A model generated the notes under the pieces. That model did no database searches. It was not told where the DNA came from and worked only from the letters and a program-made list of their open reading frames with translations. Shown here in pieces: positions 1-12,722 of a DNA stretch of 12,739 nt. Both the position numbers and the translations under genes were made by a program. The stretch comes from Bacteroidales bacterium (GTDB taxonomy: Bacteria; Bacteroidota; Bacteroidia; Bacteroidales; WCHB1-69). Numbering within the stretch: position 1 is the first letter of the stretch; each line of letters begins with the position of its first letter. The stretch spans positions 1-12,739 of the forward strand of contig JAIRTU010000131.1 of the NCBI GenBank assembly GCA_031254735.1, written 5' to 3'.

Positions 1-564
1 CCGAATATCTGCAAAAGCATTCATCTTCCTGCTCAATCGGGAAGCGATGCCGTACTCAACGCCATGAACCGAAAATATACACGTCAATGGTATTTAAGTC
101 GGATCGAAAGCATTCGCAAACACATGCCCGACTGCGGCATTTCCACCGATATGATTGCCGGATTTTGCGGCGAAACACAAGCCGACCACGAACAAAGCCT
201 TTCTTTGATGAAAACGGTGGAATACGATTATGCTTTTATGTTCAAATATTCGATGCGAGAAGGAACGGCGGCTCACAAGAGCATGCAAGACAATATCGAC
301 GAAGCTACAAAAACCGCCAGATTGGAAGAAATTATTGCGTTGCAACAAGAATCTTCGCTCAAAAGCAACCAAAAAGATGTCGGAAAGACCTTTGAAGTCT
401 TGGTGGAAGGTGTTTCAAAGCGTTCCGATGATTTTCTTTTCGGAAGAAACAGTCAAAACAAAGTGGTTATTTTCCCCAAAGGAGATTATAAAAAAGGAGA
501 TTATGTCCATGTAAAAATCACTTCCTGCACCAGTGCCACCCTAAAAGGAATTGTTAATGGTTAA
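1..564 (+). CDS. miaB: MiaB, tRNA-2-methylthio-N6-dimethylallyladenosine synthase (C-terminal part, 5' truncated by window edge)
   Basis: The reading frame is open from base 1 and ends at TAA 562-564, giving the last 187 residues of a protein normally about 440-470 long. The visible part starts inside the radical-SAM domain with IHLPAQSGS and MNRKYTRQWY, followed by STDMIAGFCGET, all characteristic of MiaB. The last ~65 residues (GKTFEVLVEGVSKRS, LFGRNSQNKVV, SATLKG) are the TRAM RNA-binding domain. The enzyme is cytoplasmic and adds a methylthio group to i6A37 of tRNAs reading UNN codons, using S-adenosylmethionine and iron-sulfur clusters. The cluster-binding cysteines lie upstream of the window and cannot be checked. 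The ATG at 64 is internal, because conserved MiaB sequence continues upstream of it. The stop codon sits within a short TTAATGGTTAATTG-type repeat that continues into the intergenic region. The family call is secure; MiaB rather than MtaB or RimO is favoured by the NRKYTR and FMFKYS motifs. Confidence 0.93.
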   Translation, partial: PNICKSIHLPAQSGSDAVLNAMNRKYTRQWYLSRIESIRKHMPDCGISTDMIAGFCGETQADHEQSLSLMKTVEYDYAFMFKYSMREGTAAHKSMQDNIDEATKTARLEEIIALQQESSLKSNQKDVGKTFEVLVEGVSKRSDDFLFGRNSQNKVVIFPKGDYKKGDYVHVKITSCTSATLKGIVNG

Positions 565-637
565 TTGTTGATGACGCGTTGACAACACGACAGAGCATAA
601 TCGTATAAATTACCGTTCAGACAAAAGAGGCTTACTG

Positions 638-711
638 ACATTCCCGAAAACATTCCGTACATGTTCTAAAGTCTTTCGGACATGTTCTAAAGTGCTCCAT
701 ACATGTACAAA
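638..711. repeat. Three ACATGT palindromes plus one degenerate copy, exact 21-bp period
   Basis: ACATGT occurs at 659-664, 680-685 and 701-706, exactly 21 bp apart. A degenerate copy, ACATTC, sits a further 21 bp upstream at 638-643. The first two full units share ACATGTTCTAAAGT, and the third has ACATGTACAAAAA. The flanks differ between units, so the conserved part is the palindromic core and its right side. A 21-bp step is two turns of B-DNA, which places all cores on one face of the helix. This suits a multimeric binding site but also a decayed tandem repeat. Confidence 0.7.
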
Positions 712-795
712 AACGTTCAGGGAACTTCCAAAAAATTGCCCCTCAATTCCCTTCTGCTCTGCTGTTCCGTCATTAACCATCAACCATTATTAAAA

Positions 796-809
796 TCCCC
801 CGCAGGGGA
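796..809. other. Small GC hairpin, possible weak terminator
   Basis: TCCCC (796-800) can pair with GGGGA (805-809) around a CGCA loop. A-rich sequence flanks both sides, with no clear T-run after it on the plus strand. It could help end miaB transcription, but the stem is only 5 bp, so this is a weak call. Confidence 0.25.
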
Positions 810-895
810 AAAATAATAATGATTAGTGATAAGTGATTAATGACGCACGCACGTAGCGAAAGAACATAATCCCACAAATCTCAGGTTGAACAATT

Positions 896-908
896 GGGGA
901 AAGTCCCC
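896..908. other. Small hairpin upstream of the DUF2147 gene
   Basis: GGGGA (896-900) pairs with TCCCC (904-908) around a 3-nt loop, AAG. It lies 15 bp upstream of a TATTTTTG match (924-931) to the Bacteroidetes -7 element. It may be a leftover of the intergenic repeats or a weak structural element; no regulatory role can be shown. Confidence 0.25.
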
Positions 909-923
909 TGTTATTCATGGCAT

Positions 924-931
924 TATTTTTG
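924..931 (+). promoter_or_regulatory. Possible Bacteroidetes -7 element (TAnnTTTG) for the DUF2147 gene
   Basis: TATTTTTG matches the TAnnTTTG consensus and lies 59 bp before the ATG at 991, a sensible leader length. No TTTG -33 element is found at the usual spacing; the nearest TTG starts at 894, too far upstream. In such T-rich DNA one match can arise by chance. Confidence 0.3.
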
Positions 932-990
932 TTTTTTGCATGAAAAACGATTTTTGTAAGATTTTTTTTTGAAAATAAAACCATAAATAA

Positions 991-1434
991 ATGAGAACAA
1001 CAGATTGGAAAACTATTGCTTTATTTTTTACCATAAATTTTTTACTTTCCCCCATTTACGGACAGGTATCGTCTATTGTCGGAGAGTGGAAAACGGTGGA
1101 CGACAAAACAGGTGAAGTCCGTGCAATGGTTCGGATATTCAAAGCAAACAATGGTTTATATTATGGTAAAATAGAAAAAATGTATAAATATTCCGACGCC
1201 GTCTGCGAAAAGTGCGAGGGCGAAGATAAAGGAAAACCTGTTCAAGGCATGATGATTATTCGTGGCATGAAAGCCGACAACAACGTGCTGAAAGAAGGTT
1301 ATGTTTTAGACCCCGAAAGCGGTAAAAAATATTATGGAACTATCAGTTATGACGCCAAAACAGGAAAACTCAAACTGCGCGGGTCTTTGGACAAACGCGG
1401 TATTTTGGGCAGAAATCAATATTGGATAAAATAA
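991..1434 (+). CDS. Secreted DUF2147 family protein
   Basis: This 147-residue protein begins with a hydrophobic signal peptide (about residues 8-24) with a likely cleavage after SPIYG, before Gln25, so it should be exported. The mature part matches the DUF2147 pattern: VGEWKTVDDKTGEVRAMVRI at about 30-49, YYGKIEKM at 57-64, a CEKC pair (Cys72, Cys75) with GKPVQGMMIIRGMK after it, then ILDP-like VLDPESGKKYYGTI and a closing LKLRGSLDKRGILGRNQYW. The family is a small beta-rich domain of unknown function, common in Bacteroidetes and Proteobacteria and often about 140-150 residues, so the gene appears full length. The Cys pair could form a disulfide or bind a metal; that is inference. It stands alone, with 426 bp before it and 262 bp after it, on the same strand as its neighbours. 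No enzymatic role should be assumed. Confidence 0.85.
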   Translation: MRTTDWKTIALFFTINFLLSPIYGQVSSIVGEWKTVDDKTGEVRAMVRIFKANNGLYYGKIEKMYKYSDAVCEKCEGEDKGKPVQGMMIIRGMKADNNVLKEGYVLDPESGKKYYGTISYDAKTGKLKLRGSLDKRGILGRNQYWIK

Positions 1435-1696
1435 TAAATGAAACAGCACGAGGCATCTTTTCACACAATCGCAAAGATTGCCGCAACAGACAGCAACCGG
1501 CGGAATATTGTTGTGATGACAGGTCGATTTTCAACAGGAAAACGGCAAGATAAGGCGGTTTGGAAGTTGAAATAACCCGAAAAAAGAAACGAGAAAGAAT
1601 TTCCTTTCCAAAATCGCGGAATGCTTTCGGCGTATGTCGAGCAGAGGAAAGGACGAAAATAGAAAATAGGAACGTGTAAATTAAATATTCATCGAA
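1435..1696. other. 262-bp gap upstream of the efflux operon
   Basis: No gene is supported. A 45-codon ATG-to-TAA frame (1438-1575) is present but matches nothing recognised. TCCTTTCC (1602-1609) and GGAAAGGA (1646-1653) form an 8-bp inverted repeat with a 36-nt centre, a possible operator though near chance level. No TAnnTTTG promoter element was found by eye. The efflux operon promoter most likely lies here, since this is its only upstream gap. No TetR, MarR or AraC regulator gene adjoins it. Confidence 0.45.
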
Positions 1697-2761
1697 ATGA
1701 AAAAAAACAATATCATCATTTTCGTAACAATAGCCTTGTTGGCTTCCTGTGGAAGAAATACAAAAGAAGCCGAGCCGATTGTCCGTACCGCAAAGATAGA
1801 TACGGTGCGATTGTCGGGCGGCGTGTTGAAGTCGGTATATCCGGGAAAAGTAAAATCGAATACAGAGGCGAGCCTTTCTTTTCGCGTGGACGGAACAATA
1901 GCCCGCATGCCTCATGCCGAAGGTGCTTTTGTCCGCAAGGGAACGCTTATCGCCGAAATGGACGCTCGTGATTACCGCGTGCAGCTGGCAGCCACCGAAG
2001 CGGAATACAATCAGATAAAAGCTACCGCCGAACGAATTATCGAGCTGTACAATCGCGGCAGCGCCACCAAAAGCGATTACGAAAAAGCCGTTTACGGATT
2101 GGACCAAATCACCGCCAAATACAACGCTCACAAAAACCAATTGAGCGACACCCGTTTGCTTGCTCCTTTTGACGGATATATCCAAAAGAAATTGCACGAC
2201 GAACGCGAAACGGTGGCGGCAGGCATGCCGGTAATTTCTATGACAGGAAATAAAGAATGTTTGATAGAGATCAATCTGCCGGTGCAGGATTACGCCCGAA
2301 AAGAGGACTTTGAACACTTTGAAGCAACGGTATCTACCGAACCCGACAAGAAATTGGCGTTGGAACTGTTTGAACTTTCTCCCACAGGAAATGCCAATCA
2401 GCTGTATCGAATGACCTTTCGGATAAAAAACCCGAAAGAAGTAAGCGTAGTTTCGGGCATGAGTGCAGAAGTCGGCATTAAATATAAAACCGAACAAAAA
2501 CCGGTGTACGAAATTCCTGTTTCGGCTATCTTCGAGATGAAGAACAAGCCGCATGTGTGGATATTTACTTCGGAAGATGTTCCGTTGAAAGCACAGGAAG
2601 TTGTTGTCAGCGAGATAAAACGCAACGGATATATTGTTGTGGAACAAGGAATAAAAGACGGAGACGTGATAGTGGTTGCGGGCGTGCAATCTATTCGGGA
2701 AGGAACGAAAGTCAAGCCGCTGCCACCCGCAAGTCCGAGCAATATAGGAGGAATGTTGTAA
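1697..2761 (+). CDS. RND efflux periplasmic adaptor lipoprotein (membrane fusion protein)
   Basis: This 354-residue protein has a lipoprotein signal: KKNN, a hydrophobic stretch, then the lipobox LLASC with Cys18 as the likely lipidated residue. It should be anchored in a membrane and reach through the periplasm, bridging the pump and the outer-membrane channel. The barrel-sandwich (lipoyl-like) halves are SLSFRVDGTIARMPHAEGAF with RKGTLIAEMDARDY (about 55-95) and LLAPFDGYIQKKLHDERETV with AAGMPVISM (about 154-185). They enclose a short alpha-helical hairpin (about 96-150). Beta-barrel and membrane-proximal domains follow, including YEIPVSAIFEMKNKPHVWIF and a closing IKDGDVIVVAGVQSIREGTKV. 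It is a normal HlyD/AcrA-type adaptor at typical length. The start is fixed by the signal peptide. The TAA stop shares a base with the pump's ATG (TAATG), so the two are probably translationally coupled. The substrate cannot be predicted. Confidence 0.93.
   Translation: MKKNNIIIFVTIALLASCGRNTKEAEPIVRTAKIDTVRLSGGVLKSVYPGKVKSNTEASLSFRVDGTIARMPHAEGAFVRKGTLIAEMDARDYRVQLAATEAEYNQIKATAERIIELYNRGSATKSDYEKAVYGLDQITAKYNAHKNQLSDTRLLAPFDGYIQKKLHDERETVAAGMPVISMTGNKECLIEINLPVQDYARKEDFEHFEATVSTEPDKKLALELFELSPTGNANQLYRMTFRIKNPKEVSVVSGMSAEVGIKYKTEQKPVYEIPVSAIFEMKNKPHVWIFTSEDVPLKAQEVVVSEIKRNGYIVVEQGIKDGDVIVVAGVQSIREGTKVKPLPPASPSNIGGML
2746..2751 (+). promoter_or_regulatory. Strong Shine-Dalgarno (AGGAGG) before the RND pump
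   Basis: AGGAGG ends 9 nt before the ATG at 2761, inside the adaptor gene. It settles the pump start at 2761 although the frame stays open upstream to an ATG at 2557. It is notable because the other starts in the window have little or no Shine-Dalgarno sequence. Confidence 0.7.
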
Positions 2762-5700
2762 TGAGCAGATTATCGGAATTGGCATTAAAAAACAGGCTGA
2801 CGGTAAAATTCCTTGTTTTTTCTTTGTTGGCGGGCGGGATTTTATCGTTTTTCCGCATGGGAAAAATGGAAGATCCCGAGTTGGCAATTCGCATTGCTCA
2901 GGTGGTAACTGTTTATCCGGGAGCGTCGGCACACGAAGTGGAATTGCAGGTTACCGATCCGTTGGAAAAAGCCATACGTTCCATGACGGGGATAGGTTCG
3001 GTAGAATCTAAATCGAGCAACGATTTGTCTATCATTCAAGTTACGTTAGATATTACCTTGCCCGAAAAAGAGATACAGCAACATTGGGATATTTTGCGTC
3101 GCAAGGTTGGCGATGCGGGGTCTTCGTTGCCCGCCGAAGCTCGTACTCCTGTGGTGATGGATAACTTTGGCGATGTGTACGGTTTGTTTTACGCTATCAC
3201 GGCTGACGGTTTTTCCAATGAGGAGTTTAACGATTATATCGGAAAGATAAAACAGGAACTCCTCACGGTGGAAGGCGTTGGGAAAGTTACTTCGTTCGGC
3301 GAACAAAAGCCCTGTATCTATATCGACATAAAACAGGATAGATTGGCACATCTGGGTGTACATTTCTACGAGCTGATGATGACCATTCGAGGGCAAAATC
3401 AAATGGTGTATCCGGGTTATTTTTACAGCGGAAACACACGCCTCCGCATGGAAATAACCGACAGTTACAACAACGTGGAAGATATTGAAAACCTGTTGAT
3501 AAAAGGACACGAAGAAGACCAACTCCGTTTGAAAGATATTGCCGCCATTCGGAAAGGAATAGTAGAACCCTCGCGCAGCAGCATGCGTTACGACGGAAAA
3601 CCGGCTGTCGGCTTGGCGGTGTCGATGGCGCCGAAATACGATATTACCAAAGTGGGAAAATCGGTGGAAAAGCATTTGCTGGAATTGGAAAACAGAGGCA
3701 CGCTTCCTTTGGGGATAGATTTTCATAAGGTGTTTTTCCAGTCCGACAGAGTAAATGAATCTATCAACACTTTTTTAATTAATTTGTTGGAATCGGTTTT
3801 GATAGTGGTTTTGTTGCTCATGCTCACTATGGGTTTTAGAAGCGGCGTGATTTTAGGGTCTAATTTGTTGATTATAATATTGGGATCGTTCTTTGTTTTA
3901 GACCTTTTCAACGGAACATTGCAGCGGGTGTCTTTGGGTGCGTTGATATTGGCAATGGGCATGTTGGTAGACAATGCGGTGGTGATTATCGACGGTATTT
4001 TGATCGATTCCCAACGGGGAATGAAAAAACCGCTTTCTTTGGTGGATACGGCAAACAAAACCTCGATGCCGCTTTTGGGTGCGACCATGATTGCTATTTT
4101 GGCATTTTTCCCTATTTTCCTCTCGCCCGATATGGCAGGCGTTTATGTACGCGATTTGTTTGTGGTGTTGGCTGTTTCTTTGATAATAAGTTGGATATTA
4201 TCGCTTACCTTAGTGCCTATGCAGGCAGACACATTGTTGAAGTTGAACACAAAAGAAGAAAATAAAGATCCTTTTTCGGGGAAATTTTATGTTCGATTTC
4301 GCAAAATGCTTTACTTCATGCTTTCGCATCGCCTGCTGACAATAACGGCGGTTCTTGTTTTGTTGGTGCTTACGATGTTTGGTTTTCAATATGTGAAACA
4401 GGGATTTTTCCCCGATTTTAGATATGAACAGGCATATATCGAATACAGAATGCCCGAAGGGACAAATATCACTCAGGTGAAAGCCGATTTGCAAAATATG
4501 GAACAAACGCTTTTGGCAAGAGAAGATATTCATCATGTTATATCAAGCTACGGCGGAACGCCTTTTCGGTACAATTTGGTGCGTTCTTTCGCCGAGCCGT
4601 CTTTGTCTTACGGCGAATTGATAGTCGATTTTGTTTCTCCCGAAGCGATGGAAAAAGCCTTGCCCGAATTGCAGAAGATGTTGTCGGAAGCCTATTCGCA
4701 GGCGTATGTTCGTATCAAGAAATATAATTTAATGTATAAACCTTATCCGATAGAGGTTATGTTTACCGGTCCCGATCCCAAAATATTGAAAGAGCTTTCT
4801 GCACAGGCAGAAGCCATCATGGAATCCGAGCCGAGCATTATGCTTGTTACCAACGATCTGGGTGCTGAATCGCCTGTTTTAAGAGTCAATTACAATCAAT
4901 CTTCCGCACGCACGGCAGGCGTTTCGCGTTCCGACATGGCGATGTCGTTGCTGGCGGCAACCGACGGTATTCCGATAGGATCGTATTACAACGGAATCAC
5001 TTCCGAACCTTTGATTTTGAGAAGCGTAGACGTTCACGAAAACCCGATAGAAGATGTTTCCAACGTCCCTGTGTTGACGGCACTTCCTTCTTTGTCTTCG
5101 TTGAACAGAGAATCGATCATGGAGGTGTTTATGGGAAGTAAAGAAATATCTGCCATTATCACCGACATGTTGCAGCCCTCTTTGTTAAGTCAGGTGAGCG
5201 ACGGAATTTCTTTGGAATGGGAAGATTTGATCGTTCGCCGCGACAACGGAAAGCGTTCGATAAAAGCACAATGCAACAATGCGTACGGCTGCACTCCCGC
5301 TCAATCGCGCAACGCCATTAAAGAGAAAATAGAAAATATTCATCTTCCCGAAGGCTATCAATTGGAATGGCGGGGCGAAGCACAGGCAAGTGCCGATTCT
5401 ACAAAATATCTCTTTGCCAATGTTCCGCTTGCCATTGTGTTGATGATCGTCATTTTGATTATGTTGTTTAAAGATGCAAAAAAACCGATGATTATCTTTT
5501 TCTGCATTCCGTTGGCAGCTATCGGCATTGTGGCGGGCTTGTTGATAAGCGGAAAAGAATTTGGCTTTGTGGCTATTGTCGGGGCGTTGGGATTGATAGG
5601 CATGATGATTAAAAACGGCGTGGTGCTGCTGGACGAAATCACCCGATTGATCGCTTCGGGAACACCGCCGGTAGAATCTTTGCTGACGGCTTCTTCTTCT

Positions 5701-5883
5701 CGCCTCCGTCCGGTGATAATGGCTTCGGGAACAACCATTGTGGGAATGATCCCGCTGTTGTCGGATGTGCTTTTCGGCTCTTTGGCGGTTACTATCATGG
5801 GCGGACTGTTGATTGGAACAATTATTACGCTGATGATTATTCCTGTTTTGTATGCCCTGTTTTTTAAAATAAAAATAAAATAA
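2761..5883 (+). CDS. RND family efflux pump, inner-membrane permease (AcrB/HAE1-like)
   Basis: A 1040-residue proton-driven exporter that takes substrates from the periplasm and inner membrane and passes them to the adaptor-channel assembly. The layout is canonical: TM1 (about 14-34), a first large periplasmic loop, TM2-6 (about 336-485, from FLINLLESVLIVVLLLMLTM to LVVLAVSLIISW-like sequence), TM7 (about 525-545), a second loop, and TM8-12 (about 883 to the end). The TM4 motif GMLVDNAVVIIDG carries Asp404, equivalent to AcrB Asp407, but Asn405 replaces the second Asp (AcrB Asp408). The TM10 lysine of the proton relay is present as Lys951 in GMMIKNGVVLLDE, matching AcrB Lys940. Length and motifs indicate an intact pump. 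The start at 2761 is chosen for its AGGAGG site, its overlap with the adaptor stop, and the typical N-terminus MSRLSELALKNRLTVKF. It is the middle gene of the operon; the channel follows after 18 nt. Sequence alone does not distinguish drug, lipid or bile-salt export. Confidence 0.95.
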   Translation: MSRLSELALKNRLTVKFLVFSLLAGGILSFFRMGKMEDPELAIRIAQVVTVYPGASAHEVELQVTDPLEKAIRSMTGIGSVESKSSNDLSIIQVTLDITLPEKEIQQHWDILRRKVGDAGSSLPAEARTPVVMDNFGDVYGLFYAITADGFSNEEFNDYIGKIKQELLTVEGVGKVTSFGEQKPCIYIDIKQDRLAHLGVHFYELMMTIRGQNQMVYPGYFYSGNTRLRMEITDSYNNVEDIENLLIKGHEEDQLRLKDIAAIRKGIVEPSRSSMRYDGKPAVGLAVSMAPKYDITKVGKSVEKHLLELENRGTLPLGIDFHKVFFQSDRVNESINTFLINLLESVLIVVLLLMLTMGFRSGVILGSNLLIIILGSFFVLDLFNGTLQRVSLGALILAMGMLVDNAVVIIDGILIDSQRGMKKPLSLVDTANKTSMPLLGATMIAILAFFPIFLSPDMAGVYVRDLFVVLAVSLIISWILSLTLVPMQADTLLKLNTKEENKDPFSGKFYVRFRKMLYFMLSHRLLTITAVLVLLVLTMFGFQYVKQGFFPDFRYEQAYIEYRMPEGTNITQVKADLQNMEQTLLAREDIHHVISSYGGTPFRYNLVRSFAEPSLSYGELIVDFVSPEAMEKALPELQKMLSEAYSQAYVRIKKYNLMYKPYPIEVMFTGPDPKILKELSAQAEAIMESEPSIMLVTNDLGAESPVLRVNYNQSSARTAGVSRSDMAMSLLAATDGIPIGSYYNGITSEPLILRSVDVHENPIEDVSNVPVLTALPSLSSLNRESIMEVFMGSKEISAIITDMLQPSLLSQVSDGISLEWEDLIVRRDNGKRSIKAQCNNAYGCTPAQSRNAIKEKIENIHLPEGYQLEWRGEAQASADSTKYLFANVPLAIVLMIVILIMLFKDAKKPMIIFFCIPLAAIGIVAGLLISGKEFGFVAIVGALGLIGMMIKNGVVLLDEITRLIASGTPPVESLLTASSSRLRPVIMASGTTIVGMIPLLSDVLFGSLAVTIMGGLLIGTIITLMIIPVLYALFFKIKIK

Positions 5884-5901
5884 ACGACCAAATAATATAG
5901 C

Positions 5902-7290
5902 ATGAAACTAAAATATATCATCGGAATACTTTTGCTTACAGGCGGAATGTCTTTGCAGGGGCAAAATTATCTTTCGTTAGACAGCTGTCGAAGATTGGCA
6001 TTGGAAAACAACAACAAATCGAAATCGGCACAAATGCAGTTCAAAAAGATGCGTTACGAGGTGAATGCCTATCGCGCGAATTTCTTCCCGCGAATTTCTG
6101 CTCAGGGGATGTATCTGTTTACCACAGGAGACTTTAATTATCATAATCGTTTCGACATGTATAAGACCAATATTCCGAGCATGATAGGAAGTCTTCCCCT
6201 TCCCGAATGGGCGGTTGGCTATCTCGATCAATTTTACAAGGCGCTGTATGCCGATATTGACCTTACGGTAAAACCCAACAATACCTTTTTGGCAGGAATA
6301 ACGTTTGAACAGCCTGTGTTTATGGGAGGAAAAATTACTGCGGCATACAAAATGTCGAAGATTGGTCGAGAAATGGCACAGCTGAACCTCGAACTGACCG
6401 ACGCGGAAGTTATCCTCAAAACAGATGAAGCCTATTGGCAGTATGTAAAGGTGATAGAACTCTACACCACCGCACTCAAATACAAAGAAGTGGTCGAAAA
6501 CGTCTGCACCGATGCCCAAAACGGAATGGAGGCGGGCATGATTGCCCAAAACGACCTGATGAAAGCCCAAGTGAAATTAGGCGACGCCAAACTGATGCTT
6601 CGGCAGGCAGAAAACGGAAAACGATTGGCACAGACAAACCTCTGCATGGTAACAGGAATGAACCTTTTTACCGAAATTCTTCCTTTGGACACCTTGTCGG
6701 ACGAACTTCCGCTTGCCCTGCTCGACAACATGCCGGAGGTTACTTCCCGCATCGAATATCGTTTGCTCAAAAAGCAATTGGAGTTGAAAAAACAACAGGT
6801 AAACCTCTCGCGGAGTGATTTCTTGCCGCAGTTGGGCATTACGGGCGGATATAATTACCTCAACGGCGTTATGCTCAACGATACCAAACTTTTCGATAAG
6901 GCTTCTTTTTCGGCGATAGTGTCGTTGAAGATTCCGCTTACGCAATGGGGCGAAGGCGTCAACCGCATACGTTCTGCCAAAGCCGACCTGTATATGGCGG
7001 AATATCAACTGCAAGAAACCGCCAATCTGTTGCAGTTGGAGATAATGCAGGCATATAATACGTTGGACGAGACTATTTTAAAAACCGATATTGCTCGTTT
7101 GGAACATCAACAGACAACAGAAAATCTGCGTATCGCCAACGACCGTTATGAATTGGGCTTGGAAACACTTTCTGCTCTTTTGGAAGCACAAGTCTTGTGG
7201 CAACAGGCGAGAAACAAATACATAGAAGCCAAAGCCTCTCTCCGCACCGTCGAATCGGATTATCTGAGAATAAGCGGCAAAAGAAAATGA
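5902..7290 (+). CDS. TolC family outer-membrane efflux channel
   Basis: This 462-residue protein has a signal peptide (MKLKYIIGILLLTGGMSLQG, then QNY) with no lipobox cysteine, so it is probably cleaved by signal peptidase I and inserted in the outer membrane as a trimer. It shows the duplicated outer-membrane efflux protein pattern. The first half opens with SLDSCRRLALENNNKSKSAQ and has long helices and a beta-strand pair around FLAGITFEQPVFMGGKITAA. The second half repeats the layout with SRSDFLPQLGITGGYNYLNG, FSAIVSLKIPLTQWGEGVNR and a closing helix, RYELGLETLSALLEAQVLW. Length is normal for the family. It is the third gene of the adaptor-pump-channel operon and should complete a conduit from periplasm to outside. 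Only 18 nt separate it from the pump, with a weak ribosome site. No clear terminator hairpin with a T-run follows, only the inverted-repeat element from 7295. Confidence 0.93.
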   Translation: MKLKYIIGILLLTGGMSLQGQNYLSLDSCRRLALENNNKSKSAQMQFKKMRYEVNAYRANFFPRISAQGMYLFTTGDFNYHNRFDMYKTNIPSMIGSLPLPEWAVGYLDQFYKALYADIDLTVKPNNTFLAGITFEQPVFMGGKITAAYKMSKIGREMAQLNLELTDAEVILKTDEAYWQYVKVIELYTTALKYKEVVENVCTDAQNGMEAGMIAQNDLMKAQVKLGDAKLMLRQAENGKRLAQTNLCMVTGMNLFTEILPLDTLSDELPLALLDNMPEVTSRIEYRLLKKQLELKKQQVNLSRSDFLPQLGITGGYNYLNGVMLNDTKLFDKASFSAIVSLKIPLTQWGEGVNRIRSAKADLYMAEYQLQETANLLQLEIMQAYNTLDETILKTDIARLEHQQTTENLRIANDRYELGLETLSALLEAQVLWQQARNKYIEAKASLRTVESDYLRISGKRK

Positions 7291-7539: not shown

Positions 7540-8328
7540 ATGAACATTATTGAACTTTTAAACAAAGTCAACCGGAAAAATATTTGGGACGAAGAGCCTG
7601 TTTTTTGCTTCACCTCCGACATGGATTGGGCGTCGGAAGCGGTTTTATCCATTTTTTTTCAAGAGATCCCTTTGGAAGAAATGAAATTGACGACTTTTGT
7701 TACTCATCTGTCGGAAATCATTGAAAATCTGTATAAAAACCAACAGATAGAAAGAGGAATACACCCTAATTTTCTCTTCGGTTCGTCGCATGGAAATTCT
7801 TTTCGCGAAGTGATAGAAACCTGCAAAACCTTTTCTCCCGAAGCTGTCGGAAGCCGTTCGCATCGTTTGTTTCAGGTTACGGATACGGCTCATTTGCTGA
7901 AAAATGAATACGGATTTTTGTATTCTTCCAATGTGATAAATGTTTTCGGGACAAAGATAAAACCGCTTTTGCATGAATCGCAGTTGATAGAGTTTCCTGT
8001 TTTTTTTGAAGACGGCACTTTTTTGTACAACGATTCCCGCTTGAAAATCGAGCCGTATTTAAACTGTTTTGAAACGCCGGGCTTGAAAATAATCAGTTTT
8101 CACCCGATGAATATCGTGTTCAATACGCCCTGCATTCAATGGATGCGAGCATTGAAAGATTCGATGACAAGAGAGGCATTCCACACAATCGATGCAGATT
8201 TTATTCAAAAAACAAAAAATAACAGCAGCGGAATTGGGAATATATTGTCGGAAATTGTTAATTTTGTGCGGCGAAAAAATTATCCTGTATTGTCGCTGAA
8301 TGAAATCTATTATAAAACCATAGAATAA
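7540..8328 (+). CDS. WbmS-like polysaccharide deacetylase family protein
   Basis: A 262-residue cytoplasmic protein without a signal peptide. Its motif set resembles the WbmS-like branch of the NodB/CE4 polysaccharide deacetylase superfamily: FTSDMDWASE (Asp27, Asp29) near the N-terminus as the likely metal or catalytic aspartates, GIHPNF (His75) with SSHGNS, GSRSHRLF (Arg106, His108) like the HSxxH metal motif region, EFPVFFEDG (about 151-159), and IISFHPMNI (His188) near the end of the barrel. Family members occur in O-antigen and other surface-glycan clusters; their substrate is generally unproven. Lack of an export signal suggests action on a nucleotide- or lipid-linked sugar inside the cell. 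The GNAT acetyltransferase follows 6 nt later, so the two are almost surely co-transcribed. Deacetylase activity is inferred from the fold, not proven by the motifs; the superfamily call is firmer than the reaction. Confidence 0.68.
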   Translation: MNIIELLNKVNRKNIWDEEPVFCFTSDMDWASEAVLSIFFQEIPLEEMKLTTFVTHLSEIIENLYKNQQIERGIHPNFLFGSSHGNSFREVIETCKTFSPEAVGSRSHRLFQVTDTAHLLKNEYGFLYSSNVINVFGTKIKPLLHESQLIEFPVFFEDGTFLYNDSRLKIEPYLNCFETPGLKIISFHPMNIVFNTPCIQWMRALKDSMTREAFHTIDADFIQKTKNNSSGIGNILSEIVNFVRRKNYPVLSLNEIYYKTIE

Positions 8329-8334
8329 ATTATC

Positions 8335-8889
8335 ATGAGAATATTAGAAACCGAACGAATTTTGCTCAAACCCATAGAGGAAGAAGACCTTACCTTTTTG
8401 ATGAATCTGCGTTGGGACAAAGACATCACCCAATTTATTATTCATGACCCCATTTCCAAACAGGATCAAAAAAAATGGTACGAGAAAATCTCCAAAGGAA
8501 ACAATTTGGCGTTGTCTGTTTTTTACAAAGACCCGAAAAACACGGCTCAAACAGAGATTATCGGAACAGTCGGACTGTTTGACGTCAACATGCGACATCA
8601 GCATGCGAAGTTGAAATCGACACGTATATTGGCGAAATATCAGGGAAGCGGAATTGTTTTCGAGGTGTTGATGCTGGTATTGGATTACGGATTTAACACC
8701 TTGAATTTGAACAAAGTATTCGGCGATTCTTTTGAAGAAAACACTCCGATCATCAAGATTTTGGAGACGCTTGGTTTTCAGAAAGAAGGCGTATTGCGAA
8801 ATCATTATTTTCACGAAGGAATGTTTAAAAATGCCATTGCGTTGGGTTTGCTGCGAGAAGATTTCAACAAACTGAAATCGGGATTATAG
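8335..8889 (+). CDS. GNAT family N-acetyltransferase (RimJ/RimL-like)
   Basis: A 184-residue soluble protein with the RimJ/RimL-type GNAT layout: N-terminal TERILLKPIEEEDLTFLMNL, then HDPISKQDQKKWYEKI, the strand around IIGTVGLFDVN (about 77-87), the acetyl-CoA loop in LAKYQGSGIVFEVLML (about 100-115, a variant of Q/RxxGxG/A), and the C-terminal NLNKVFGDSFEENTPIIKIL plus ETLGFQKEGVLRNHYFHEGM. The family uses acetyl-CoA to acetylate amino groups. Similar enzymes include PseH, which acetylates a UDP-linked amino sugar on the way to pseudaminic acid, and ribosomal-protein acetyltransferases. Pairing with the upstream WbmS-like gene (6-nt gap) favours an amino-sugar substrate, but no other Pse or related biosynthesis gene is in the window, so pseH is not assigned. 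Its TAG stop overlaps the end of the converging glycosyltransferase gene by 6 nt. Confidence 0.82.
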   Translation: MRILETERILLKPIEEEDLTFLMNLRWDKDITQFIIHDPISKQDQKKWYEKISKGNNLALSVFYKDPKNTAQTEIIGTVGLFDVNMRHQHAKLKSTRILAKYQGSGIVFEVLMLVLDYGFNTLNLNKVFGDSFEENTPIIKILETLGFQKEGVLRNHYFHEGMFKNAIALGLLREDFNKLKSGL

Positions 8890-9999
8890 TCCCGAATAAA
8901 TTTTCTGCAAAACCTTTTCTTCGTTTTCCCAATTGAGCGTTTTTGCTGCCTCTTTGCAGTTGGCTTTCAGCTTGTTGTAGAGCGATTGGTCTTCTATCAA
9001 CAAATTGATTGCCTCCGCAATGCTTTGAGGCGTTAATTCTTCCACAATCAAGCCCACACGACAGGTAGAGACAATATACGACCGTTCGGGCAGATTGCTT
9101 ATCAACAAAGGCGTTTCGGCTTGTATATATTCAAAAATCTTGTTGGGAAGACTGAAATAATGATCTTTGCTGACATTTTTGTCGAAAGAAATACCAATAT
9201 CCGCAAGGCAGGTATAATTAAACAGCGTTTCCGGCGGAACTCTGTCCACAAATCGAACGCGATTTTCCAAATGCAGGGTTTGAGTCTTTTGCTTCAACGT
9301 TTCGATAACTTCGCCGCTTCCCACAATAAGCAAAAAGGCTTCCTTTGAAGTGAACGGCATAGATTCAAGCAGTTCTTCCGCACCTCTGTCGCGGGCAATG
9401 TGATTTCCTTGAAGAATGACAATGGTTTTATCTTCGGGCAAGCCCAACGATTTTCGTGTTTGGGTAACGGCAGGTTTTTCTTTGGAGGGAATATTTCGGA
9501 CAACCTGAACATCTACACCGTATTGTTTTTGGTATGCTTTTGCAATAGAAGGACTTACCGTAATCACATGTTTCAATTTCGGGAAACAAAACCGCTCGAC
9601 GGCCAGCCATATTTTTCTCACAAGCGGCTTGTGAATTACCGTGATCATTTCGCAGAAATATTCATGACTATCGTATACTATCGGTTTTTTTTTCAGCCTG
9701 CTCATCAAAAAAACGGGAAGCAACGTTTCTAAATCGTTTGCCACCAAAATATCGTACGAATTGAAAAGCAAATGAAAAAAAAGACGAATATTAAACTCTG
9801 CAAAAAAAGGGAAACGTTTCTTGAAAAGCATACGGAAACGCTTTGTGTGAAACGGTTTCGACAACGACGGCGATTGTTTGCAGCGGCAACCGACCACCCA
9901 AACCTCAAATCCCATTTTCATGAGAGAACAGGAAACTTTATCGATACGAGTATCTGTATATAAGTCATTTAAGACACAAAGAACTATTTTTTTTCGCAT
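8884..9999 (-). CDS. GT4-like (GT-B fold) glycosyltransferase
   Basis: A 371-residue protein of usual GT4 length. The N-terminal acceptor domain begins MRKKIVLCVLNDLYTDTRID, the typical first strand and loop, and includes ILVANDLETLLPVF and VYDSHEYFCEM, followed by VITVSPSIAKAYQKQYG. The C-terminal nucleotide-sugar domain has IVILQGNHIARDRGAEELLE, LLIVGSGEVIETL, VRFVDRVPPETLFNYT and the donor-binding region YFSLPNKIFEYIQAETPLLI with Glu290. There is no signal peptide or clear membrane helix; such enzymes act at the cytoplasmic membrane face on lipid-linked glycans. Donor and acceptor cannot be predicted. It is the only minus-strand gene: its stop overlaps the GNAT stop tail to tail, and its start faces the adenylation gene across 128 bp. 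It is thus a separate transcription unit within the locus. Confidence 0.88.
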   Translation of the reverse strand: MRKKIVLCVLNDLYTDTRIDKVSCSLMKMGFEVWVVGCRCKQSPSLSKPFHTKRFRMLFKKRFPFFAEFNIRLFFHLLFNSYDILVANDLETLLPVFLMSRLKKKPIVYDSHEYFCEMITVIHKPLVRKIWLAVERFCFPKLKHVITVSPSIAKAYQKQYGVDVQVVRNIPSKEKPAVTQTRKSLGLPEDKTIVILQGNHIARDRGAEELLESMPFTSKEAFLLIVGSGEVIETLKQKTQTLHLENRVRFVDRVPPETLFNYTCLADIGISFDKNVSKDHYFSLPNKIFEYIQAETPLLISNLPERSYIVSTCRVGLIVEELTPQSIAEAINLLIEDQSLYNKLKANCKEAAKTLNWENEEKVLQKIYSGL

Positions 10000-10056: not shown

Positions 10057-10090
10057 TTTGCAAAAGTACAAAATATTTTATGTATTTTTG
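10057..10090 (+). promoter_or_regulatory. Bacteroidetes-type promoter for the adenylation/formyltransferase/carrier operon
   Basis: TTTG (10057-10060) serves as the -33 element and TATTTTTG (10083-10090) as the -7 element, with a 22-nt spacer. This fits the Bacteroidetes primary sigma factor consensus (TTTG and TAnnTTTG). It predicts a start near 10095-10100 and a leader of about 30 nt before the ATG at 10128. It is the best promoter match in the window. Confidence 0.65.
10061..10068 (-). promoter_or_regulatory. Possible -7 element for the glycosyltransferase gene
   Basis: On the minus strand this reads TACTTTTG followed by CA, a good TAnnTTTG match about 62 bp before the start codon. No -33 TTTG was found at normal spacing, so it is weaker than the plus-strand promoter. 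Its position inside the plus-strand spacer means the two promoters could compete. Confidence 0.35.
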
Positions 10091-10127: not shown

Positions 10128-11612
10128 ATGTTTAAACGACTTTATAAATCTTTGGAAGACCACGCTTCAAATGTCGCATTCTGCATAGATGACAATTTTT
10201 ACACCTATGGAGAATTATCGGCTGTTGTTGCGAACATACGAACGCTCATTCGGGAAAATATCAGCCGAAATGAGCAAATAACGGCTCTTGTCGCTCATAA
10301 CGACGTGGAGACGTATGCTTCTATCCTTGCTCTTTGGTTTGAAGGAAAAGCCTATCTTCCTCTTTTGCCGAGCAATCCTCAAAAAAGGAACGAAAACATT
10401 TTGCGGCAGGCAAACATCAAATATGCTTTGTCTTCTTCGGCGGAAGAAAACATGGAAAATATTTGTTTTCTGCATACGAAAAACATTTCGGACAATCCTG
10501 TTACAGAGCAACCAAAAGACATTTCCGATACCGCATTTGCCTATATTTTGTTTACTTCGGGAAGTACTGCCGTTCCCAAAGGCGTTCCTGTTTCGCGAGG
10601 CAATATAAGTGCATTTGTTCACGCTTTTGATGCACTCGATTCCGGCATGACGAGCCGTGATAAATGTCTTCAAATGTTTGATTTGACTTTCGATATGTCG
10701 ATAATTGCTTTTCTGACGGCGTTGTTGCATGGGGCGGCTGTGTATACGCTTCCGCCCGTAAAAGCAAAATATGCTTACGCGATAAAGTTGATGCACGAAA
10801 ACGAACTGACCGTTGCCGTAATGGTTCCTTCGGTTATCAATTATTTATCTTCTTATTTCGATCAAATATATTGTCCTGCCATGCGGTACAACTTGTTTGC
10901 AGGAGAAGCACTCATGAAAGATACGCTTATCGGCTGGAAAAAATGTATCCCCAACGCAAGAATCGACAATGCGTACGGTCCAACCGAAACCTGCATCATC
11001 TGTTCTTATTATACCATTCCGTCACCTCCTCAACAGGCTCTTTCGCACAACGGATTGTTGTCTATCGGCAAGCCGATGAAAGGAACAGAGATGATAATTG
11101 CCGACGAAAACGGACAGGCATTGCCCGCCGAAAGCAAAGGGGAAGTCTGTATTTCGGGCAAGCAGGTGTTTTCAGGATATTTCAAAGATGAAGAAAAGAA
11201 TAAAACGGTTTTTTTCAAACGCGACAACATCACCTGTTATCGATCGGGAGATATGGCGTTTTCAAACGAAGAGGGCTATTTCTTTTTTCTGGGAAGAAAA
11301 GATTTTCAAATAAAAATAGACGGATACAGAATAGATTTGTTGGAAATAGAACATCATATCCGAACCATCACCGACAATCGATATTTGGTTTCGGTTGTGA
11401 GTTTTGCCGGCAATACCAATCACGGTATCGGCGTTGCGATAAAATCCGAACCTTTCGACACAAAAGAACTGATGGAACAGTTGAAATTGTTGCTGCCGAA
11501 ATACATGATTCCTTCCCGTTTTGTTTTTCTGCCCGAAATGCCGCTCAACAACAACGGAAAAATAGATAAACAAGCCTTACAATCACTGTTGGAAACCTGT
11601 CGAAATAAATGA
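10128..11612 (+). CDS. Stand-alone amino-acid-type adenylation enzyme (NRPS A-domain-like, DltA-like)
   Basis: A 494-residue ANL-superfamily enzyme that should activate a carboxylic acid with ATP and load it as a thioester on a carrier protein. All core motifs are present: A3 LFTSGSTAVPKG (141-152), A4 FDLTFDMS (184-191), A5 NAYGPTET (281-288), A7 YRSGDMA (371-377), A8 GRKDFQIKIDGYRID (389-403) and A10 NNNGKIDK with catalytic Lys478. Hand alignment to the GrsA Phe domain puts Asp189 at GrsA Asp235, which binds the substrate's amino group, so an alpha-amino acid is likely. The hand-read pocket code is about D-M-I-M-L-A-A-I-I-K, mostly hydrophobic, and too uncertain to name the substrate. No condensation, carrier or thioesterase domain is attached. 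It is the first gene of a cassette: its stop overlaps the formyltransferase start (ATGA), and a carrier gene follows, making that carrier the likely acceptor. It is not assigned dltA because dltB and dltD are not seen. Confidence 0.88.
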   Translation: MFKRLYKSLEDHASNVAFCIDDNFYTYGELSAVVANIRTLIRENISRNEQITALVAHNDVETYASILALWFEGKAYLPLLPSNPQKRNENILRQANIKYALSSSAEENMENICFLHTKNISDNPVTEQPKDISDTAFAYILFTSGSTAVPKGVPVSRGNISAFVHAFDALDSGMTSRDKCLQMFDLTFDMSIIAFLTALLHGAAVYTLPPVKAKYAYAIKLMHENELTVAVMVPSVINYLSSYFDQIYCPAMRYNLFAGEALMKDTLIGWKKCIPNARIDNAYGPTETCIICSYYTIPSPPQQALSHNGLLSIGKPMKGTEMIIADENGQALPAESKGEVCISGKQVFSGYFKDEEKNKTVFFKRDNITCYRSGDMAFSNEEGYFFFLGRKDFQIKIDGYRIDLLEIEHHIRTITDNRYLVSVVSFAGNTNHGIGVAIKSEPFDTKELMEQLKLLLPKYMIPSRFVFLPEMPLNNNGKIDKQALQSLLETCRNK

Positions 11613-12487
11613 TGAAAGTAGTAATTGCCGGAGAAGACCGATTTGCCGTTGCCGTAATGAAGACGCTTTTGAAAGAAGGGTACGAAATATCTTTATTCAT
11701 CACGCCTGCTTACAACAAACAAATTCGGTTGTTGGAGAATGCCGCCCTGAAAAACAATATTCCTTTCCTTTCGGCAGATGATATAAACGCTGCCGAAACG
11801 CTTTCTTTGTTGGAGAAACTGTCTCCCGATGTTGTTTTATTAATTCATTTCAACCGTCTGGTTCATCTGCCTTTTATAAAGATACCCAAAATGGGCTGTA
11901 TCAACATACATCCGTCTCTGTTGCCGCAGTATCGCGGACGACACCCTCAATATTGGGCAGTGATAAACGGCGAAGAAAAAACAGGAATAAGCATACATTT
12001 TGTGGACGAGGGAATAGACACAGGAGATATTATCTTCCAAAAAGAAATTGCGATCACTTCACAGATGTATATTGCCGATATTCAACAAATGCTGTTGAAC
12101 GAATATGGATCGTGCATGCTCAATGCCCTGACGCGGATACAGGACAAACAATTCAAACCGAAGAAACAGCCCGACGGAGATTTTAAAGTCTATCGGGCAT
12201 TGTCGATAAAAGATATTACTCTTGATACGGAGATGTCGGCAAAAGCTGTTTTTGACAGGATACGTGCCGGTTCTTTTCCGTTTTTGGGGGCGCGGTTTGA
12301 AGATTTTATCTTTTGGAAAGCCTCTTTTTTCGACCAACAGCAACAGAAAGATATTCTTCGAGAAAATAACTCGTCGGGATTTTGTGTTAATACGGCATGG
12401 GGCGATATATGGACGGCAAAAGACGGCGTGTTAAAAATAGAATGGTTTGAACAGATAAATACAGATAAACAAAAAAATGACAAGTAG
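11609..12487 (+). CDS. Formyltransferase family protein (Fmt/ArnA/LgrA-F fold)
   Basis: A 292-residue enzyme of the N10-formyl-tetrahydrofolate transferase family. The signature CINIHPSLLPQYRGRHPQYW is followed by TGISIHFVDEGIDTGDII. Asn99, His101 and Asp137 match the catalytic triad of methionyl-tRNA formyltransferase, with the same spacing as E. coli Fmt Asn106/His108/Asp144. The N-terminal Rossmann part starts MKVVIAGEDRFAV. The C-terminal ~100 residues (RALSIKDITLD, DRIRAGSFPFLGARFEDF) resemble the OB-like domain of Fmt and ArnA. Housekeeping Fmt is unlikely because of divergence and context. Two roles fit: N-formylation of an aminoacyl group on the adjacent carrier, as the F domain of linear gramicidin synthetase does, or N-formylation of a nucleotide amino sugar. 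The gene lies between the adenylation enzyme (4-nt overlap) and the carrier (11-nt overlap), which favours the first. The start could be 11609 or the next ATG at 11612. Confidence 0.87.
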   Translation: MMKVVIAGEDRFAVAVMKTLLKEGYEISLFITPAYNKQIRLLENAALKNNIPFLSADDINAAETLSLLEKLSPDVVLLIHFNRLVHLPFIKIPKMGCINIHPSLLPQYRGRHPQYWAVINGEEKTGISIHFVDEGIDTGDIIFQKEIAITSQMYIADIQQMLLNEYGSCMLNALTRIQDKQFKPKKQPDGDFKVYRALSIKDITLDTEMSAKAVFDRIRAGSFPFLGARFEDFIFWKASFFDQQQQKDILRENNSSGFCVNTAWGDIWTAKDGVLKIEWFEQINTDKQKNDK

Positions 12488-12722
12488 AGAAGACATACAA
12501 AAAGGAATAGAGAACATAATAGCGACTGTTTTGGATAATGATGATTTTGTTTTGGACGAATCGGCAGCTATCATAGACATAGAAGAATGGGATTCGCTGG
12601 CTCATATTACCATTATTTCGGAAATAGAAAAGACGTTCAAGATAAAATTCAAGTTACAGGAATTTTATCAAATAAACAACCTGAAAGCCCTCATCGACTT
12701 TACAGAAGAGAAAGTTGTCTGA
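12477..12722 (+). CDS. Acyl/peptidyl carrier protein
   Basis: An 81-residue acidic helical protein with the carrier-protein signature IEEWDSLAHITIISEIEKTF. Ser40 in DSL is the expected attachment site for 4'-phosphopantetheine. The helix-1 region (EDIQKGIENIIATVL) and the final helix (NNLKALIDFTEEKV) complete the four-helix fold at normal length. It should carry the aminoacyl thioester made by the adenylation enzyme two genes upstream. It resembles small stand-alone carriers of polysaccharide and DltC-type systems more than the housekeeping fatty-acid ACP, whose usual neighbours (fabF, fabD) are absent. Its start lies 11 nt inside the formyltransferase gene, implying coupled translation. No phosphopantetheinyl transferase gene is in the window, so a chromosomal one must activate it. 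The last 17 nt of the window after its TGA hold nothing callable. Confidence 0.87.
   Translation: MTSREDIQKGIENIIATVLDNDDFVLDESAAIIDIEEWDSLAHITIISEIEKTFKIKFKLQEFYQINNLKALIDFTEEKVV

Follow-up and report, generated by a model that had tools for sequence, protein, structure and literature searches.

What would a bacterium make with an adenylation enzyme, a formyltransferase and a carrier protein encoded as three separate genes beside glycan genes? The question is raised by a 12,739-nt contig of a Bacteroidales bacterium (JAIRTU010000131.1, assembly GCA_031254735.1; "the window" means this whole stretch), in which the plus strand carries A (10128-11612, 494 aa), a candidate stand-alone amino-acid adenylating enzyme, F (11609-12487, 292 aa), a member of the formyltransferase family, and T (12477-12722, 81 aa), a carrier protein. 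On the reading that we prefer, to which we give roughly even odds (about 50%), the cassette supplies the cytosolic part of a Dlt-like system for envelope aminoacylation, into which a step of N-formylation has been inserted, and the product goes to a surface glycan. A would adenylate a small amino acid and load it onto the phosphopantetheine of T, where F would transfer a formyl group from 10-formyl-tetrahydrofolate to the alpha-amine of the bound residue. The resulting N-formyl-aminoacyl thioester would then donate its acyl group, with a membrane MBOAT as the likeliest acceptor; through the C-terminal acyl-tyrosine shuttle of that MBOAT the group may reach an SGNH-type protein and, from there, the glycan. 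We infer every step after T, since the window ends there; the amino acid and the target of formylation are likewise predictions.

The cassette and its recurrence

A sequence-only reading of the window had described three overlapping genes for adenylation, formyltransferase and carrier functions, and the open reading frame (ORF) map and Pfam bear this out. A and F overlap by 4 nt and F and T by 11 nt, and each protein scored above the cut-off of its family (A, AMP-binding, 193 bits; F, Formyl_trans_N, 109 bits; T, PP-binding, 32 bits). The catalytic residues that the same reading had found intact in F, Asn99 (11903-11905), His101 (11909-11911) and Asp137 (12017-12019, all plus strand), are invariant in 21 of the 21 rows of the family alignment, and the DSL serine noted in the carrier is the phosphopantetheine residue Ser40 (12594-12596, plus strand) within WDSLAH. 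The best match of T in the PDB was GmACP3 (2lml, 43 bits), and T used as a database query returned four proteins, T itself included. The core motifs FTSGSTAVPKG, YGPTE, YRSGD, GRKDFQIKIDGYR and NGKIDK are all present in A, whose Lys478 is encoded at 11559-11561 (plus strand). Only 17 nt separate the stop of T from the window end, so that the missing condensation and thioesterase genes are uninformative about what lies downstream.

True relatives of F were present at four other distinct genome loci, namely L001/L140 (Aquirufa), L002/L139 (Ferruginibacter), L136/L137 and L135/L138; a further 20 relatives of F were available as protein sequences. Co-occurrence of the three genes, which had been proposed as a check, was found throughout: the order is A, F, T in all four loci, with gaps of -4 to +3 nt between A and F and of -11 to +29 nt between F and T (the A gene of L138 is cut by the contig end), and no fusion among A, F and T was seen in the four. 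Because this order recurs in four of four loci with a true F, the cassette is not a chance arrangement. In two further protein pairs, P0003 with P0148 (12,832) and P0011 with P0240 (150,774), both members come from contigs of identical length and are possibly co-located, which is only suggestive.

In L137 and L139, A and F are followed by T, a GNAT, a second carrier, an MBOAT and an SGNH-like protein. The window A is 43% identical to the A of L002 and 28% identical to that of L001, and T matches L139 T1 at 62 bits compared with 24 bits for T1 of the KAS III type of locus described below; the MBOAT type is therefore the one expected downstream of the window. A second, very divergent formyltransferase-like protein is encoded on the minus strand in both L137 (3855-5102; 29.9 bits in Pfam) and L139 (7864-8985).

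Gene company and substrate pocket of A

Relatives of A are far more common than those of F. At an E-value of 1e-60 we obtained 1,310 proteins, and at 1e-130 A was found in 16 of 198 class-sample genomes, seed G002 included. Sixteen A neighbourhoods were fetched, which between them cover the 17 further sites of A; one genome contributed two of them, and some span little DNA (L159, 5.5 kb). An F homologue was detected in none of the 16 (blastp of all ORFs), and tblastn found T in 12, MBOAT in 10, GNAT in four and a homologue of the window glycosyltransferase in four. The same search with T, MBOAT, GNAT and the glycosyltransferase gave 0 of 78 for each in control loci (1,149 kb), which were formyltransferase neighbourhoods, mostly from other phyla and unmatched for taxon; A itself matched two of the 78.

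When the MBOATs of these ten loci are taken together with those of L137 and L139, the C-terminal motif is FxYxxF in 11 of 12 and FxYxxY in the remaining one, and 11 of 12 contain SGxWH. The hexapeptide FxYxx[FY] is described in PMC12148441 as the acyl-tyrosine shuttle of PatA and, in Dlt, of DltX. Two of the MBOATs were scanned, and DltB was the sole model matched (151 and 164 bits; cut-off 375). Of the 12 MBOAT loci, nine have an adjoining protein that carries GxS and DxxH, among 15 neighbours picked by hand. At L167, L168 and L170 the protein in the SGNH position has GPC for GxS and no DxxH, and the adjoining MBOAT keeps the shuttle motif. The carriers next to A read WTSM in L161, L162, L163 and L171 and WNSV in L164, instead of WDSL, around the expected serine.

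A GNAT is located between A and T, that is, in the slot of F, in four of the 16 A loci, which is where one would look for an enzyme that caps a carrier-bound amine. In L159 the gene directly after A and ahead of the MBOAT (1920-2819, plus strand, 299 aa) encodes a GNAT and a carrier-like domain in one chain; this domain has WDSLTH and scores 16.8 bits for PP-binding, under the cut-off of 20.8. The fusion hints that the GNAT acts on a carrier-bound group. F and GNAT would be alternative caps for the carrier-bound amine. In a 54-row tree of A, in which rows of unknown F status were scored as lacking F and the L140 branch is very long, five state changes are required to account for the six A proteins whose F partner is known or presumed, a result matched by 89 of 500 shuffles; this would suggest repeated joining or loss.

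The substrate of A is probably a small amino acid, alanine or a close relative. Asp189 (10692-10694, plus strand) is, by GrsA numbering, the candidate amine-binding position. The A pockets of L137 and L139 read FDLSVM and FCGE, corresponding to the Asp-Leu-Met-Cys set of Bacillus cereus DltA, with positions placed by GrsA numbering and by motif. Cys occupies the DltA-Cys position in 81 of 122 A rows and Ala in 30 (two rows counted twice), and the Segatella copri relative of A has a code of the Asp-Phe-Met..Cys type. According to PMC8972799 and PMC4176424, B. cereus DltA binds D-Ala through Asp197 and a Leu-Met-Cys cavity, the Cys governs D/L selectivity, and a C269A mutant shows a relaxed D preference (the last from PMC4176424). 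Judged by pocket residues, alanine is a likely substrate for the relatives and a plausible one, in either enantiomer, for the window A.

We call the system Dlt-like because of the gene company and the pocket of the relatives, not because of A alone. A scored 295.5 bits against the AA-adenyl-dom model and 278.5 bits against a DltA model, each under its cut-off, and at 269.2 bits for TIGR01734 (cut-off 559.85) it fell short of the DltA equivalog level. Its profile matches were GrsA at 327 bits, DltA at 317 and LgrA at 590 over two domains, and the best fold match of its predicted structure (predicted local distance difference test, pLDDT, 86.4) was the free-standing A enzyme THR1, followed by AlmE, DltA, LgrA and others in mixed order.

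Ancestry of F, neighbouring genes and competing explanations

The F profile matched Fmt at 154 bits, ArnA at 151 and LgrA at 74-76, and ArnA and Fmt tie as the closest structures to F; LgrA is absent from the 50 matches listed in that comparison, which carries no weight either way. In the tree, F belongs to a single rare clade of 25 rows (SH-aLRT, the Shimodaira-Hasegawa-like approximate likelihood ratio test, 99) that stands apart from the Fmt rows. Identity with the housekeeping methionyl-tRNA formyltransferase Fmt was rejected on this tree and on a sub-cut-off score against the Fmt model (129.5 bits; cut-off 201.5), and kinship with the LgrA F domain was rejected on the profile scores. The sequence-only reading had seen in the cassette an LgrA-like formylating module. 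Of this, the chemical analogy in the F, A and T activities holds and the kinship does not, since the F profile is nearer Fmt and ArnA and the genes are unfused; as a whole, that interpretation is partly supported.

F is a rare addition. The samples listed next share genomes with one another and contain the seeds; in the four large runs (phylum 395, family 222, family 344, class 395 genomes) at most 6, 11, 7 and 6 candidates per genome, respectively, were scored. At an E-value of 1e-58, F was found in three of 395 genomes of the phylum sample, two of which were dropped as Fmt to leave the seed alone, and in one of 222 (the seed) and three of 344 genomes of the family samples. At 1e-62, it was found in one of 395 genomes of the class sample (again the seed), in two of 93 of the G002 genus and in one of 14 of the G892 genus; a 59-genome run of the G912 genus at this threshold gave the same two genomes with F. 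The two dropped from the phylum sample, L132 and L133, were Fmt beside peptide deformylase (read by eye). Such patchiness within a genus may resemble that of a variable surface-glycan locus. Viral contigs held no close F relative (best match 35% over part of F), and plasmids held remote formyltransferases only (27-28% identity among the matches listed, the best 15 of 382 records). A genome scan with the single F sequence found nothing, and an alignment-based scan gave at least 80 loci, two of which stood out as true relatives. Related systems without F are thus common, and the formylating version is rare.

The genes upstream agree with the earlier statement that the cassette lies beside glycan genes. 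A GT4 glycosyltransferase (8884-9999, minus strand) is divergent from A and has homologues in L161 (315 bits), L162, L164 and L171 (41-46% identity). Beyond it lie a GNAT acyltransferase (8335-8889, plus strand) and, 6 nt from the GNAT, a WbmS-like protein of the polysaccharide deacetylase family (7540-8328, plus strand; PF22537, 133.6 bits); neither of these two has a homologue in the 16 A loci. Between the glycosyltransferase gene and A, we read by sequence a putative promoter of the A-F-T operon at 10057-10090 (plus strand), with TTTG at 10057-10060 and TATTTTTG at 10083-10090, possibly of the Bacteroidota type. Positions 1-7290 encode a DUF2147 protein and an RND-type efflux trio of adaptor, pump (by eye) and TolC-like protein, and also contain the terminal part of a MiaB-like gene (by eye).

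Several observations, set out in this and the next three paragraphs, weigh against a Dlt-like system with inserted formylation. The window holds no MBOAT or SGNH gene, its DNA ending 17 nt after T. The pocket of the window A is Asp-Met-Ile-Ala, without the Leu-Met-Cys set, and neither profile (GrsA 327 versus DltA 317 bits) nor fold (THR1 best) singles out DltA. MBOAT is absent from six of the 16 F-less A loci by tblastn, some of the loci being short. The neighbours in L167, L168 and L170 are without SGNH motifs, the SGNH assignment in general is one made by motifs, and the L002 copy is unrecognised by Pfam. Furthermore, the window F forms with P0002 and P0003 a subclade (support 97), a third lineage within the F clade, that is distinct from the MBOAT-linked F proteins.

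In two of the four related loci, L138 and L140, the genes continue with T, KAS III, a second carrier, a short-chain dehydrogenase/reductase (SDR) and a metallo-hydrolase, and MBOAT is lacking. This order, seen after A-F-T in L001 and L138, would suit a cassette that primes KAS III chain extension, the N-formyl-aminoacyl-T being elongated and reduced and then put on a sugar. However, the A and T of the window bear little resemblance to their counterparts in L001, a locus of the KAS III type (28% identity and 24 bits), and we consider such priming very improbable.

In a polysaccharide locus of S. copri (L178:12010-15908), the A relative is accompanied, in order, by an acyl carrier protein, an AAC(3)-family acyltransferase of the N-acetyltransferase type and alanine racemase, the AAC(3)-family protein being present rather than an MBOAT. 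One could envisage from this order that N-formyl-aminoacyl-T is made as proposed above and that a cytosolic N-acyltransferase (GNAT or AAC(3)) attaches the group through an amide bond to a nucleotide-linked amino sugar. The GNAT upstream in the window and the other GNATs in four of the 16 A loci are consistent with this route, but MBOAT is the commoner partner (10 of 16 sampled loci), and the window GNAT has no homologue in those loci and is not adjacent to A, a gene of opposite orientation lying between the two. This fate of the thioester is in our view unlikely. The S. copri locus is close to phosphonate and CDP-glycerol genes.

The phylogeny that had been proposed for F set it apart from Fmt and placed its clade loosely as sister to formyltransferases encoded in nonulosonic-acid-like loci (SH-aLRT 88, short of the starred level); with this placement a sugar substrate for F is possible. 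F could be a sugar N-formyltransferase whose substrate is one of the amino sugars in the glycan, with A and T separately aminoacylating the same sugar or polymer and the operon being shared because one glycan is decorated. The sister enzymes (L035, L044 and L072) are encoded among NeuB-, NeuC-, DegT- and CMP-transferase-like genes (named by eye), ArnA is as close to F in structure as Fmt is, and a DegT aminotransferase and a PglC-like transferase (by eye) lie downstream in L001, where the L140 stretch also holds a PglD-like gene. A Bordetella O-chain terminal sugar bears both formylation and amino-acid substituents (PMC7504554), and wbmS, the likeness of which is upstream in the window, belongs to the Bordetella O-antigen locus (PMC3849452). 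Against a sugar substrate stand the low support of the sister placement, the position of F between A and T in four of four loci, where it abuts or overlaps A (-4 to +3 nt), and the lack of a homologue of the L001 DegT in the 16- and 20-kb stretches of the MBOAT-type L137 and L139. We regard this explanation as doubtful, although it is the strongest competitor.

Returning to the Dlt-like reading, we tentatively extend it to a Bacteroidota system in which a carrier feeds MBOAT-SGNH proteins and N-formylated (in the GNAT form, N-acylated) aminoacyl esters are placed on surface glycans. Such a pathway would resemble Dlt but have, between A and T, a slot in which the N-capping enzyme can be exchanged, and its rare F clade would have come from the sugar-modifying side and joined unlike A lineages. 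If so, N-formyl amino acids would be added to the surface polymers of these bacteria by a modified Dlt-type route. The positive charge brought in by D-alanylation would be lost on formylation, which would be of use for antigenic variation or for the stability of the ester. A carrier would also feed MBOATs with a built-in shuttle, whereas non-Dlt MBOAT-SGNH pathways lack a carrier according to PMC12148441. The chemistry could be sought in Bacteroidota capsules and O-antigens, and the A-carrier-MBOAT loci would have a reason. No glycan locus that combines a formyltransferase with A, carrier and MBOAT was found described in the literature covered, which took in few subscription papers.

Comparison with known systems

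The F-A-PCP (peptidyl carrier protein) module of linear gramicidin synthetase LgrA formylates a carrier-bound aminoacyl group, and the cassette has the same three activities and is proposed to perform the same chemistry. Unlike in LgrA, the proteins are separate, F is nearer Fmt and ArnA, the A relatives mostly lack F, and no peptide synthetase was seen; the resemblance to LgrA is one of chemistry and not of kinship. In AlmE-AlmF-AlmG, which glycinylates lipid A, a stand-alone A and a carrier likewise feed envelope aminoacyl transfer, but that system has no formyltransferase, and AlmE was compared here as a fold and profile match. T shares the WDSLxH pattern with the Geobacter metallireducens carrier GmACP3 (2lml). 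The sugar N-formyltransferases (ArnA, WbkC, FdtF and the nonulosonic-acid types) share with F the fold and the Asn-His-Asp site, and the F clade is loosely sister to the enzymes of nonulosonic-acid-like loci; F differs in its place between A and T and in that no DegT-type aminotransferase was found in the L137 and L139 stretches.

The MBOATs of the related loci share the C-terminal hexapeptide with PatA-PatB and other MBOAT-SGNH acyltransferases. According to PMC12148441, MBOAT-SGNH pathways outside Dlt are acyl-coenzyme A-fed and carrier-free, whereas a carrier gene accompanies the MBOAT in the related loci. With respect to Gram-negative Dlt-type genes, PMC3544676 reports that dltBAC is induced in Dickeya and that a dltB mutant survives polymyxin less well, the modified substrate being unknown. 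The likeness to Dlt itself (DltA-DltC-DltB-DltX-DltD, teichoic acid D-alanylation) consists of a stand-alone amino-acid A with a free carrier in the window and, in the relatives, of an MBOAT that ends in FxYxx[FY] and, in many cases, a protein with SGNH motifs. The differences are the scores far under the DltA and DltB cut-offs, the glycan-type loci, the fusion of the relatives' shuttle motif to the MBOAT and, in the cassette, the formyltransferase between A and T.

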